This document shows positions 38,482-43,689 of a stretch of DNA of 64,000 bases, piece by piece. Position 1 is the first letter of the stretch. Every line of letters starts with the position of its first letter. The notes under the pieces are model-generated. The model saw only the letters and a list, made by a program, of their open reading frames with translations, did not search any database and had not been told where the DNA came from. Position numbers and translations under genes: made by a program. The DNA comes from Loktanella atrilutea (GTDB taxonomy: Bacteria; Pseudomonadota; Alphaproteobacteria; Rhodobacterales; Rhodobacteraceae). The stretch spans positions 62,001-126,000 of the forward strand of contig NZ_FQUE01000009.1 in the NCBI RefSeq assembly GCF_900128995.1, written 5' to 3'.

Positions 38482-40974
38482 CTAAAACACCGCGTCGGGG
38501 TCGAGTCCCCGCTTTTCGGCACTTGCCCGGACAGCCTCTTGCAGCCCGCTGCTGGCCTGCAGCAGCCGGCGAAACCGCACCTCGTCCAGCACCAGCAGTG
38601 TCGAGGGCGCGATCGCCCGCACCTCGGCCCGCCGGGGCCGCCGCGACAGCAACGCCAACTGGCCGAACATTTCGCCCCGCCCAAGGCGCAGGGGCTGGCC
38701 CGCCGCTTCCATCTCGACCGCGCCAGAGGCGATGAAGAAGACCCGCGTGGCGATGCTGTCGCGCGGCACAATGACCTGACCCGCATCGACGTATTCCGTC
38801 TGCAGCGCCCGTCCCAGCCGGGCCAGCGCTGCATCGTCCAGATCCTTGAAGACTGGAAATTGCCGCACCAGATCCGTGCGCTGCAATGCAATGTCGAGCT
38901 TCGGGCGGTCCTCGGCACTGGCCCGCCGCGCGCCCAGTTCCTGCATCAGCGCGGTATAGACCTCCGACCCGATCAGGCCGTCCTCTCGCATCGCGTTGTA
39001 TTCCCGCTCTTCCAGCCGCAACGCCGTCCTCCGGATGAAGCGCCGCTCCAGTTCCTCGGCATAGCCCGGATATTGCAGGCGCAGCCCCTCCAGTGCGGTC
39101 TCCGCCGCTTCGATCCTGCGCGACAGCAGCTCGTGCAGCAGGTCCGCGACCCGCCGTCCGTGAATGCGCCTGATCCGCCCGTCGATGAATCCGCCCAGAT
39201 CCCGCAGGATCAGTCGCTGCGACAAAAGCAGTTCGAACCGGTCCGCCGTCATCCGGGCCAGCGGCCCCGACAGCCCCAATCGCCGCTGCAGCGAGACGCC
39301 CGCCTGAAACGCCGGGCCATAGGCCACGTTGCGCCGCGCGGCCCGCTGATACCCGCTGCGCCCGCCAGACCGGGCGCCCTCGATCAGCTGGTCCGCATCC
39401 AGCAGCACCCGCTCCGCCATCCGGGCAGAGATCGTGCGTTCCCGCACCCGCGCGAGAATCGTGTCCCGCTCGTGACCCGCCAACGCGATCAGCCCCAGCG
39501 TGATCCGATCCCGGTCGAGGATGTCGGCATTCGCCTCTGCCGACACGACGGCGGCATCAAGCCGCTCGCCGAACCGCTTCGCCTCTGACCGTACGATGTC
39601 GCGGGACAGGTCGTAGTTCTCTGTCGTGCGGGCGACATCCTCTCTCACCGTCTGCAGTGCGACGGCGACGACCTGCCGCGACAGCGCGTCATCGATAGGC
39701 GACAGCCGGTCCAGCCCCAGCCAGCCGATCACCATCCGCAGGGTCGACCCCTGCACGATCAGGGTGAAAACGGTGAAACCCGTCGCAAGGATGCCGACGA
39801 TGCGCTTGACCTCGACCGGCACTCGCAGGCTCTCGGTCACCGCCAGCGCTAGCGCCAGCGTCACCGCCCCCCGCAATCCCCCCCATAGGATCGCCGCGCG
39901 ATAGGGGCGTTCCACGACAGGCGACAGCCGCAGCAGGCTCAGCAACGGCAGCAATCCGAACAGAATCACCGCCCGCGCCGCGACGGCGGCCAGAATGACG
40001 ACGCCGATCAGGGCGATATCGCTCAGGCGCACCGCCTCCAGCAGACGCGGGATCAGCAGCGCGGCGAGGATAAAGATCAGCGCCCCGGCCCAATGCGCCA
40101 GCAGGTCCCAGACCTCTTGCAGCGAGGTCCAGGCCTGCGGCGGCAGCCGCCCCGGCCCGGTCAGGTTCAGCGTCAGGCCGGCGGTCACGACCGCGATCAC
40201 GCCCGAGGCGCCGACGCTTTGTTCGGCGATGATGTAGGCCAGATAGGGCAGCGCGATGGAGACGGTGATCTGCGCCCGCTCGTGCCGCGCGAACATGCCC
40301 ATGATCCAGACCGCCAGCCGCGCCGCGACCCAACCCGCCAGGGCCCCGCCCGCGATCAGCATCGGGAACCGGCCGATCGCGTCGGAAAAGGTCGGATCCG
40401 GCACGCCCAGCATGACAAATCCCATGAACAGGCCAAACAGCGCGATCGCCGCGGCGTCGTTCAGCAGGCTCTCTCCTTCGATGATCCGCGCCAGCCGTCG
40501 CGGGGCCGAAATCGAACGGAAGATCGAGACCACCGCCGAGGGGTCCGTGGTCGACACGATCGCGCCGATCAGCAGGCAGGCCGCCAGCGGCAACGTGCTG
40601 GCCCATGACAGGGCGTAACCCACCGTGATCGTCGCCACGACGACGGCAACCACAGCCAGCGTCAGGATCGGCACCCAGTCATCCAGCATTCGCCGCAGGT
40701 TCATGCCCAATGTGGCCTGAAACAGCAGGGTCGGCAGAAAGACGTAAAGGAACACGTTTGACCGGATCGGCAGGCCGAGGATCGCCTCGGCCACCGGGTT
40801 CAGCGCGTCGGTCAGCGTCGTGCGCAGAAAGAACGTGGCCCCGGCCGCGATGGTGACGCCCAGCACGGCGAGGATCACGCTGTAGGGCAGCCGCAGTCGG
40901 GCCGCTAGCGGCTCTGCGAGGCCGATGACCAGAAAGAGCGAGGCGATGACGGTCGTGACGAGAATGATGTCCAT
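38482..40974 (-). CDS. CPA1-type Na+/H+ antiporter with C-terminal cyclic-nucleotide-binding domain (SOS1-like)
   Basis: 830 residues. About 12 spans in residues 1-410, with the exchanger motif TDPSAVVSIFRS (about residue 145) and GESLLNDAAAIALF. A helical cytosolic region of about 280 residues follows, then a CNMP-binding beta-barrel (about 700-815: VRQFPVFKDLDDAALARLG, GEMFGQLALLSRRPRRAEV). This is the layout of plant SOS1 and its bacterial relatives. Likely role: Na+ extrusion under salt stress, gated by a nucleotide or by the domain itself. Single-gene unit. Confidence 0.9.
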   Translation of the reverse strand: MDIILVTTVIASLFLVIGLAEPLAARLRLPYSVILAVLGVTIAAGATFFLRTTLTDALNPVAEAILGLPIRSNVFLYVFLPTLLFQATLGMNLRRMLDDWVPILTLAVVAVVVATITVGYALSWASTLPLAACLLIGAIVSTTDPSAVVSIFRSISAPRRLARIIEGESLLNDAAAIALFGLFMGFVMLGVPDPTFSDAIGRFPMLIAGGALAGWVAARLAVWIMGMFARHERAQITVSIALPYLAYIIAEQSVGASGVIAVVTAGLTLNLTGPGRLPPQAWTSLQEVWDLLAHWAGALIFILAALLIPRLLEAVRLSDIALIGVVILAAVAARAVILFGLLPLLSLLRLSPVVERPYRAAILWGGLRGAVTLALALAVTESLRVPVEVKRIVGILATGFTVFTLIVQGSTLRMVIGWLGLDRLSPIDDALSRQVVAVALQTVREDVARTTENYDLSRDIVRSEAKRFGERLDAAVVSAEANADILDRDRITLGLIALAGHERDTILARVRERTISARMAERVLLDADQLIEGARSGGRSGYQRAARRNVAYGPAFQAGVSLQRRLGLSGPLARMTADRFELLLSQRLILRDLGGFIDGRIRRIHGRRVADLLHELLSRRIEAAETALEGLRLQYPGYAEELERRFIRRTALRLEEREYNAMREDGLIGSEVYTALMQELGARRASAEDRPKLDIALQRTDLVRQFPVFKDLDDAALARLGRALQTEYVDAGQVIVPRDSIATRVFFIASGAVEMEAAGQPLRLGRGEMFGQLALLSRRPRRAEVRAIAPSTLLVLDEVRFRRLLQASSGLQEAVRASAEKRGLDPDAVF

Positions 40975-41920: not shown

Positions 41921-42490
41921 ATGTCCATCCGCACCACACTCGCCTGCGCCACGATCCTGACGACGATCGCCATTGCAGGTCACGCCCAATCCATCAGTCA
42001 GCAGGTCGTCGACCAGCTGACCGAACAGGGATACTCGCGCATCGAGGTCAAGACCCGCGACAATCAGGTCAAGGTCGAGGCAATTCGCGGTGACCGCCAG
42101 CTCGAGGTCACCTATGACGCCACCACCGGTGACATCCTCAAACAGGAAGTCAATTCCGTCGAAGATCGTGACGGCATGATGAACGGCACGCCGCGCGATG
42201 ACGAACATGCGAACGAGGCTTCAGACGATCACCGTGGTCAGGGCCGCGGTCGGGGCCGTGGCGGGGATCATGCCGAAGACGATGACGATGACGGCATGCA
42301 GGGCGACGATGACGATCATGGCCGTCACGGTGGAGATCGCGCATCCGATGACGATGGCGACGATCACGAGCCCGGCAATCATGGCGGCCGTGGCGGTGAC
42401 AATGCGTCCGGCGGCGATGACAATGGCGGCAAATCCGACGGCGGTCGTCACGGCGGCCGCGATGACAACGACGACAGCGATGACGATTGA
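41921..42490 (+). CDS. Secreted PepSY-like protein with Asp/Gly/His-rich tail
   Basis: 189 residues from the ATG at 41921 after AGAGAGGAA. Signal peptide to about residue 22. A PepSY-type unit of about 60 residues follows (ISQQVVDQLTEQGYSRIEVK, then LEVTYDATTGDILKQE). From about residue 85 on comes a low-complexity acidic tail of Asp, Gly, His and Arg. PepSY units inhibit proteases or bind the envelope; the tail could bind cations such as Ca2+ (speculative). Paralogue of the next gene. Confidence 0.8.
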   Translation: MSIRTTLACATILTTIAIAGHAQSISQQVVDQLTEQGYSRIEVKTRDNQVKVEAIRGDRQLEVTYDATTGDILKQEVNSVEDRDGMMNGTPRDDEHANEASDDHRGQGRGRGRGGDHAEDDDDDGMQGDDDDHGRHGGDRASDDDGDDHEPGNHGGRGGDNASGGDDNGGKSDGGRHGGRDDNDDSDDD

Positions 42491-42534
42491 TCTCGGTAGT
42501 CCGGGAAAATTCGTGATAAACATCATGAACAGCG

Positions 42535-42558
42535 GGCCCCTGCATCGGTGCAGGGGCC
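42535..42558 (+). terminator. Hairpin between the two PepSY genes
   Basis: Perfect 10-bp arms GGCCCCTGCA (42535-42544) and TGCAGGGGCC (42549-42558) closed by a TCGG tetraloop, 22 nt before the next start. No long U run, so it may be a leaky terminator or attenuator rather than a full stop. Confidence 0.55.
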
Positions 42559-42580
42559 TCTACACGCAGAAAGTATTGCT

Positions 42581-43141
42581 GTGCTGAAACATCTGATCCT
42601 GCCTTGCTTGTGCCTGCTTCCGTCCCTTGCCGCTGCGGAAACCGTGCAGGAATCGATCCTGTCCCAGTTGCGCGATCAGGGCTTTACCCGGATCGAGGTC
42701 AGCCGCACCCTCCTTGGCCGGACGCGGCTGGAGGCGACGAGCGACCGTCTTGAACGGGAAATGGTCTTCAATCCCCAGACCGGAGAGATCCTGCGCGACT
42801 ACTGGCAGGAACGGAACGACGACGGCCGTGCAGCACCGCAAATCATGGATCCGCAGGGTGGCCGCGAAGATCGCTCCGGACGCGGGTCCGACGATTCCGG
42901 TGGTCGCGGCGGATCGGGATCGGGCAAGGGCGGTGACGACGGGGGCGGATCCGGTAACAGCGGTCGCGGCGGAGGTGACGACGGTGACCGCGGCGGCGGC
43001 AGCGACGATGGCGGCGGCAACAGCGGACGGGGCGGCGGTGACGACGGCGGCGGTGACCGCGGCGGCAGCGATGACGGTGGCAAGGGCGATGGCGGCGGCC
43101 ATGGCGGACGCGGTGGCGGCGACGACGGGGACGACGACTGA
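42581..43141 (+). CDS. Secreted PepSY-like protein with Gly/Asp-rich repeat tail
   Basis: About 186 residues from GTG 42581, which starts right before the signal peptide (VLKHLILPCLCLLPSLAAAE); the frame is open further upstream through the hairpin. PepSY-type unit ESILSQLRDQGFTRIEVSR ... MVFNPQTGEILRDYW is clearly related to the previous protein. The tail from about residue 90 is Gly/Asp/Arg/Ser with GRGGGDDG repeats, encoded by a 63-bp tandem duplication. The stop overlaps the LuxR-type gene's ATG by 1 bp. Confidence 0.75.
   Translation: MLKHLILPCLCLLPSLAAAETVQESILSQLRDQGFTRIEVSRTLLGRTRLEATSDRLEREMVFNPQTGEILRDYWQERNDDGRAAPQIMDPQGGREDRSGRGSDDSGGRGGSGSGKGGDDGGGSGNSGRGGGDDGDRGGGSDDGGGNSGRGGGDDGGGDRGGSDDGGKGDGGGHGGRGGGDDGDDD
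42952..43080 (+). repeat. 63-bp imperfect tandem duplication in the Gly/Asp tail
   Basis: Units begin with GGTAACAGC at 42952 and GGCAACAGC at 43015, giving a 63-bp period, and both encode NSGRGGGDDG followed by a DRGG and SDDGG segment. Third-position changes between the units show it is not a sequencing artefact. Confidence 0.7.
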
Positions 43142-43689
43142 TGCGCGCCCGCCGGCGCCTTGGACGCCGCGGCGCCGGCGTGCTGGCGATCCTCGTCGTT
43201 CAGATCATCTGCGCGATGTTCTTCCTCGCCAACATCCTGTCATCGGTCCTCGGCCTCGTCCCGATCAGTTGGCAGATCAGCGAATACATCGAACTTGGCG
43301 CCGCCCTCGGCCTGCTGCTGGGCGTCGTGCTTGGCGTCATCGTCCTGCAACGCACCCTGCGCCGCTCGGCCGAGATCGAGGATCAACTTCGCCGCGCCTC
43401 GGGCGCCTTCATGCAGATGCTGGAGGATCGTTTCGACAGCTGGCGCCTCACCCCGGCGGAGCGTGACGTCGCCCTCTTCGCGATCAAGGGCCTGTCCGGC
43501 GCCGATATCGCCCGCCTGCGCGGCGTCAGCGAAGGCACGGTGAAGGCGCAAAGCAACGCCATCTACCGCAAGGCCGGCGTCAGTGGCCGGGGCCAGTTGC
43601 TCAGCCTGTTCCTCGACGACCTCATGGTCCTGCCGGAACCGGAAAGTGATTGGTCAAAGGACGACCCGCGGGACAAGGCCTCTGCCTGA
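43141..43689 (+). CDS. Membrane-anchored LuxR-type HTH regulator
   Basis: 182 residues. Two predicted spans (about 13-35 and 50-70) joined by a short loop, a helical linker (RTLRRSAEIEDQLRRASGAF), then a GerE/LuxR helix-turn-helix (LTPAERDVALFAIKGLSGAD, then VSEGTVKAQSNAIYRKAGV). There is no receiver or autoinducer domain, so the signal is probably sensed in or at the membrane. Its ATG overlaps the second PepSY gene by 1 bp, so the secreted proteins may be its signal partners or targets (inference). Confidence 0.85.
   Translation: MRARRRLGRRGAGVLAILVVQIICAMFFLANILSSVLGLVPISWQISEYIELGAALGLLLGVVLGVIVLQRTLRRSAEIEDQLRRASGAFMQMLEDRFDSWRLTPAERDVALFAIKGLSGADIARLRGVSEGTVKAQSNAIYRKAGVSGRGQLLSLFLDDLMVLPEPESDWSKDDPRDKASA

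Follow-up and report, generated by a model that had tools for sequence, protein, structure and literature searches.

The window, 64,000 nucleotides long, lies on contig C25 of a genome of 4.2 Mb and holds a three-gene unit that we read as an autoregulated one-component envelope-signalling module, in which an exported PepSY protein (PepSY-A) would dock on the loop of a membrane-tethered LuxR-type regulator and serve as its likely feedback inhibitor; our confidence in this reading as a whole is modest, lying slightly above even. The regulator would be anchored in the inner membrane, its two ends cytoplasmic and the short loop between its helices periplasmic, and the T-x-L-G-R face of PepSY-A, the regulator-proximal of two PepSY proteins, would dock on the loop motif P-x-x-W-x3-E. 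Binding or release of PepSY-A would then be relayed by a continuous helix (residues 44-100), through the second membrane helix (TM2), to the cytoplasmic DNA-binding domains, and the regulator would bind the palindrome TAAAC-N4-GTTTA upstream of the operon and mainly control that operon. An envelope condition, perhaps divalent or polycationic ligands or damaged envelope components, would draw the polyanionic PepSY proteins away, free the regulator and cause more PepSY protein to be made. The operator palindrome, the PepSY-A-linked W44/E48 loop motif and the single-helix path in the predicted structure are features newly described here.

Reading frames and translations place all three open reading frames (ORFs) in one direction (Table 1), and the ORFs, Pfam, a joint profile and a fold model agree with the sequence-only reading that two paralogous exported PepSY-like proteins are encoded beside a two-span LuxR protein. 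The ATG of the regulator shares one base with the stop codon of PepSY-A (TGATG), for which GTG 42581 is the most likely start and a further in-frame GTG lies at 42548. The genes flanking the trio run in the opposite direction, with a CMD-family gene before it and a molybdopterin-binding dehydrogenase gene after it. A promoter scan of the locus returned one promoter-like site, within PepSY-B, and a terminator scan of the locus called none, the hairpin between the two PepSY genes included. In 11 of 34 loci the DNA between the PepSY genes can form a perfect, short-looped stem of 8 pairs or more, against 0.46 expected by lenient mononucleotide shuffling with gene starts estimated from domain position; the stem sequences differ among loci, and the hairpin may determine how abundant the PepSY-B transcript is relative to the rest. 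An Rfam scan of 40.9-44.0 kb gave a single sub-threshold match, regarded as chance. Further upstream, 38482-40974 (-) encodes a sodium/hydrogen exchanger of 830 aa with a C-terminal cyclic-nucleotide-binding domain.

Table 1. Features of the PepSY/LuxR locus, in window positions.
Feature	Position	Strand	Description or basis
PepSY-B	41921-42490	+	Signal peptide (residues ~1-22), PepSY_2 unit (to residue 76), Asp/Gly/His-rich tail (~42149-42487)
PepSY-A	42581-43141	+	Signal peptide, divergent PepSY unit (~42635-42799), Gly/Asp tail (~42800-43138)
Membrane-tethered LuxR/GerE regulator, 182 aa	43141-43689	+	Helix 3-37 (TM1), helix 44-100 (TM2 and linker), helix-turn-helix 105-162 in the model
GerE/LuxR-type helix-turn-helix	43447-43626	+	Residues 103-162; Pfam and predicted structure
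Periplasmic loop motif P41-x-x-W44-x3-E48 of the regulator	43261-43284	+	Alignments of regulators
T-x-L-G-R motif of PepSY-A	42707-42721	+	Modelled at the strand 1-strand 2 turn; would form the contact face
Predicted operator TAAACTTGGGTTGA	41782-41795		Matches TAAAC-N4-GTTTA at 9/10 positions; 125 bp upstream of the PepSY-B start
Hairpin between the two PepSY genes	42535-42558	+	Perfect 10-bp stem, without a T-tract

The two PepSY proteins differ in how readily they are recognized. PepSY-B marginally passes the cut-off of PepSY_2 (PF13670; 24.5 bits against 24.3), whereas PepSY-A fails that of PepSY (PF03413; 13.3 bits for the whole protein and 15.8 for the domain alone, against 24), and among 46 A-type units 14 match PF03413 and 6 match PF13670 at E <=0.1. 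The description of PepSY-A as PepSY-like rests on these weak Pfam matches, on its similarity to PepSY-B in the joint profile and on a confident model of the unit, predicted as a helix and four strands (mean pLDDT 89.7). A PDB sequence search with PepSY-A gave no meaningful match and a PDB fold search with the model gave nothing at E <=0.001. The top fold match was 4exr, a lipoprotein of C. difficile (TM 0.61 on the query), and the fold matches, with VIA Z values of at most 7.6 in a range where chance matches are common, are taken as consistent only. The A type is the regulator-proximal protein with T-x-L-G-R and the B type the distal one without this pattern. As the A-type rows were chosen by T-x-L-G-R, invariance of T, L, G and R among them is by construction; R38, after the motif, and the near-final D52 are kept in 44/44 rows independently of the selection pattern. 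The B type is the less conserved (mean column identity of 46% vs 55%).

Co-occurrence of these genes elsewhere, the absence of which had been named beforehand as refuting, was found from both search directions. Loci were examined around the regulator, namely 75 from public genomes, 30 from relatives and then 20 further stretches. Upstream of 125 regulator ORFs, a count that takes in duplicates, split ORFs and contig ends, there are 83 cases of PepSY-A, 15 of a short PepSY with cytochrome b561, five of a short PepSY, two of a cytochrome only and 20 in which none of these was found. In the reverse search, a PepSY-A profile searched against 61 relatives found 20 matches at E <=1.2e-17 in 18 genomes, window included, and a same-strand regulator match adjoins 20/20 of them. 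In one of these genomes PepSY-A and the regulator form one ORF (G029), and in two the regulator is split over two ORFs (G018, G013). Among 240 genomes of the class, the profile at E <=1e-8 matches only the genome of the window (G000) and two genomes of another family, both with the regulator downstream. The PepSY-A/regulator pairing in Rhodobacteraceae therefore exceeds chance. Conservation of the trio in this family, which the sequence-only reading had suggested as a check, held for that recurring pair but not for the second PepSY, which was detected in just 36/75 PepSY-A loci. On a regulator tree of 108 rows, for which bootstrap support is not settled and the root serves for drawing only, the PepSY-A state needs three changes, compared with 27.3 under shuffling; five PepSY-less rows are nested inside the PepSY-A rows and the PepSY-cytochrome modules fall outside. 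Some PepSY-less regulators (L056, L059, L066, L026/L152) are preceded by another small exported protein, and a Pfam scan of the two examined, in L056 and L152, gave no family match. Single ORFs running from PepSY to regulator occur at L109 5410-6273 and L024 1012-1971, the former probably a decayed copy since its membrane part is missing. L033 and L156 have the regulator in two ORFs and may be broken copies or sequence errors.

The regulator passes the GerE cut-off (PF00196; 27.7 bits against 23.5). Through their helix-turn-helix part, 53/53 regulators also match NCBIfam NF047608, the LIC13292 family transcriptional regulator, at E <=0.001; that of the window (P0003) scores 53.3 bits, below the cut-off of 200, and we found no literature on the LIC13292 family in open-access papers. 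Among 15 of 16 records of relatives on plasmids, the annotation is a LuxR or helix-turn-helix regulator, apart from one hypothetical protein and three places where no gene is listed. A single-chain AlphaFold2 model (pLDDT 89.3, pTM 0.67) has one unbroken helix, 44-100, running from W44 through TM2 to the linker towards the DNA-binding domain. Over 79 rows, the 20 residues that follow TM2 hold on average 4.9 Lys and Arg, compared with 1.6 for the loop and 2.2 for the short N-terminus, and from this charge distribution we infer that both ends are cytoplasmic, with a short periplasmic loop.

In the short stretch between the membrane helices, an alignment of 53 regulators shows no variation at E48 and more than 90% conservation at P41 and W44. 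For the wider comparison, ORFs without W-x-L-[ST]-x-[AS]-E, with a short N-terminal part or with identical letters were dropped, reducing 125 to 108 rows for the tree and 113 for the loop, and the labels of L105, L148, L159 and L024 were assigned by hand. Among the 113 rows, regulators paired with PepSY-A have W44 in 77/78 (one has Y) and E48 in 78/78, whereas those beside a short PepSY and/or cytochrome b561 have W44 in 0/19 and E48 in 0/19. W44 is also absent from all five PepSY-less regulators that fall inside the clade (L026, L056, L059, L066, L096), E48 surviving among them in L066 only, with F replacing W. The motif is present in L018, which is cut by a contig end. An extra sample of 249 genomes of the phylum, not fully independent as some rows are close to loci already used, added five PepSY-A partners with W-x3-E and two with F-x3-E, window and repeats excluded. 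In this sample W-x3-E is also present in L216, whose PepSY lies outside the strict pattern, and absent from seven rows without PepSY-A; three rows were dropped as the motif was not found (L214, L215, L217) and two yielded no regulator ORF (L219, L225). Two genomes of another family with a T-x-M-G-R PepSY keep W-x3-E although their regulator is otherwise far diverged. It should be noted that membrane anchoring could be what preserves W44 and E48, their loss along with PepSY-A then reflecting descent, and that the PepSY-A regulators, falling largely into one clade, offer few independent events.

The predicted operator TAAAC-N4-GTTTA emerged from a count of gapped palindromes in upstream DNA. Of 75 PepSY-A loci, 41 match it at 9/10 positions or better in the 300 nt that precede the first PepSY, 35 of them perfectly and many ~140 nt from a PepSY start estimated from domain position; mononucleotide shuffling, a lenient control, expects 0.40. 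The better control is a downstream comparison, in which the operator lies within 2.2 kb upstream of the regulator in 66/82 PepSY-A rows and downstream in 1/82, the single downstream match preceding a second copy of the module in L081. These 82 rows leave out the duplicates L039, L152, L157 and L162 and retain near-copies and split ORFs; 16/82 have no site in the upstream DNA examined, which for part of these is shorter than 2.2 kb. Many of 71 aligned sites are followed at fixed distance by two half-sites, GGTTTATGG near +29 (each base 51-68%) and TAAACC near +47 (58-77%). The operator also occurs in 4/14 PepSY-cytochrome rows, 2/5 short-PepSY rows (L024 and L159, by hand assigned to the A kind), 0/2 cytochrome-only rows and 4/18 rows with none of these genes (L056, L059, L066, L109). 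Because the PepSY-cytochrome rows and the PepSY-less L056, L059 and L066 share it, the operator is independent of PepSY-A.

How widely the palindrome is used bears on which protein binds it. If it were the site of another, global regulator, with the tethered LuxR controlling something else, many sites would be expected, yet 16 of the 30 perfect sites in 37 genomes of the own family lie at the module by coordinates (one, in G012, at the cytochrome kind). A reversed control pattern has 93 matches in the same genomes, so the operator is not a common site. The own genome has no perfect operator and 7 sites at one mismatch or fewer, against 20 for the control, and G017 carries a perfect site at both of its module copies. 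A large regulon, looked for by strict motif in the own and family genomes, was not found. We consider the global regulator quite improbable, although the operator-binding protein is one that we infer, the site is shared by L027 and L030, which have the order PepSY-cytochrome-LuxR, and both G000 and G005 have a 9/10 match close to where a NarX-like kinase gene begins. These operator-like sites (L203 near 2932, L204 near 2909) do not align exactly with each other, G005 is the only other genome of nine in the genus having the kinase, and the site may be a second target or chance.

A dedicated autoregulator, bound to the palindrome as the co-encoded protein, would be the simplest reading of these sites, and the main target of the regulator is probably its own PepSY operon. 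The secreted PepSY proteins would consequently be output and feedback in addition to input. The sequence-only reading had proposed a tight sensing unit in which the secreted proteins report to the tethered factor: the linked unit is conserved and such reporting is plausible, strengthened by the PepSY-A-associated loop motif, but that reading missed the PepSY operon as the regulator's probable main target. Against our preferred reading, a single main target is unusual for a regulator meant to drive a response.

The tails of the PepSY proteins had been described as fast-changing, and comparison with G005 bears this out. Between G000 and G005, PepSY-A keeps 49/50 domain positions but 73/113 tail positions, and PepSY-B 47/49 but 82/114. 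The DNA of tail A contains imperfect tandem repeats. Net charge of the PepSY-A tail is -5 or lower in 68/75 and positive in one. The tails drift in sequence, the conserved property apparently being negative charge rather than sequence, and they would represent a natural case of selection on charge. Some tails have just 17-36 residues (L054, L080, L083, L057), so the tail probably modulates rather than forms the core contact. Tails A and B of the same operon correlate in D, E, G and length (Spearman 0.61-0.70, or 0.57-0.61 with G+C removed; n=36), a correlation set aside as evidence since relatedness is uncontrolled. In L048, L052 and L063 a short YL[TN]GG-type motif replaces the plain acidic PepSY C-terminus, on both paralogues of one operon in L048 and L063.

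The conserved charge would also fit if the PepSY proteins were only a regulated output, such as a protease inhibitor or a polyanionic periplasmic buffer taking up metals or cationic peptides, and the tethered LuxR sensed the membrane without touching them. The position of the operator upstream of the PepSY genes would fit this, as would the metal binding described for the PepSY proteins LanP and UipA in reviews (PMC11845868, PMC8963506). However, the loop motif accompanies PepSY-A and the sister regulators lack it, PepSY-A and the regulator are joined by translational overlap or a short gap, and DbfQ (below) offers a precedent for contact, which together make an output-only role rather unlikely in our view. 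A stronger form of the preferred reading, which we put forward only tentatively and with some doubt, is that the exported PepSY proteins gate the tethered LuxR via its single helix and that the main job of the regulator is homeostasis of the periplasmic polyanion pool formed by the PepSY tails, such that partner, feedback and output would be one set of molecules.

PepSY proteins beside sensors are widespread. The only worked-out PepSY-sensor case that we found, DbfQRS of Vibrio cholerae, uses a histidine kinase: DbfQ is a small periplasmic PepSY protein, its gene lies upstream of dbfRS, and it attaches to the DbfS sensor domain (dissociation constant ~30 nM) and biases DbfS (PMC12714742). The same report notes that BqsRS of P. 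aeruginosa has two PepSY genes in front of it (PA2659-PA2658-BqsRS), of which only the proximal product is predicted to bind (PMC12714742). Such modules resemble ours in encoding one or two small exported PepSY proteins just upstream of a membrane sensor, and the principle of a proximal PepSY acting on the sensor in the periplasm would be the same here. They differ in their histidine kinase and response regulator, replaced here by a single tethered LuxR protein, in the long polyanionic tails, a feature of the present module, and in that direct PepSY-sensor binding is demonstrated for DbfQRS and proposed for ours. On the contig, the nearest HATPase_c and Response_reg matches are ~40 kb away or more, with none within four genes, so the present module is not a DbfQRS member. 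Here the principle seems present with the shortest wiring, from periplasm through one helix to DNA, and the predicted operator and named contact residues make each step testable in marine Rhodobacteraceae with simple constructs. No paper on an exported PepSY combined with a tethered LuxR was found in the open-access literature, most subscription journals lying outside its scope. The earlier statement that no such system has been described thus stands for the combination, but the principle of DbfQRS (PMC12714742) is very similar.

The sign of the PepSY-A effect is a separate matter. ToxS, with ToxR, exemplifies a co-activator or folding partner, and PepSY-A could play such a part in an otherwise identical module, the linkage and loop evidence fitting either sign. 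We think this somewhat unlikely, given that in the only worked-out case the proximal PepSY, DbfQ, lowers pathway output (PMC12714742), and that exported products of the same operon would suit a feedback brake. A feedback inhibitor is accordingly the role that we favor for PepSY-A.

LanP and UipA, already mentioned, are likewise exported or membrane PepSY proteins and have acidic, metal-binding surfaces; each has two PepSY domains, and the passages on them in the reviews do not mention a tethered LuxR partner (PMC11845868, PMC8963506). Nothing was found in the open-access literature on modules of the order PepSY - cytochrome b561 - LuxR, which were seen here in one direction and also outside the family (L144-L148, L150, L151, L153, L027, L102, L106, L107, L111). 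These sister modules share with ours a related two-span LuxR regulator and an exported PepSY in the same direction. They differ in the cytochrome b561 gene between PepSY and LuxR (PF01292, one member scanned), in a short PepSY without tail or T-x-L-G-R and in a regulator without the loop motif, and they are possibly a redox counterpart of the present module.
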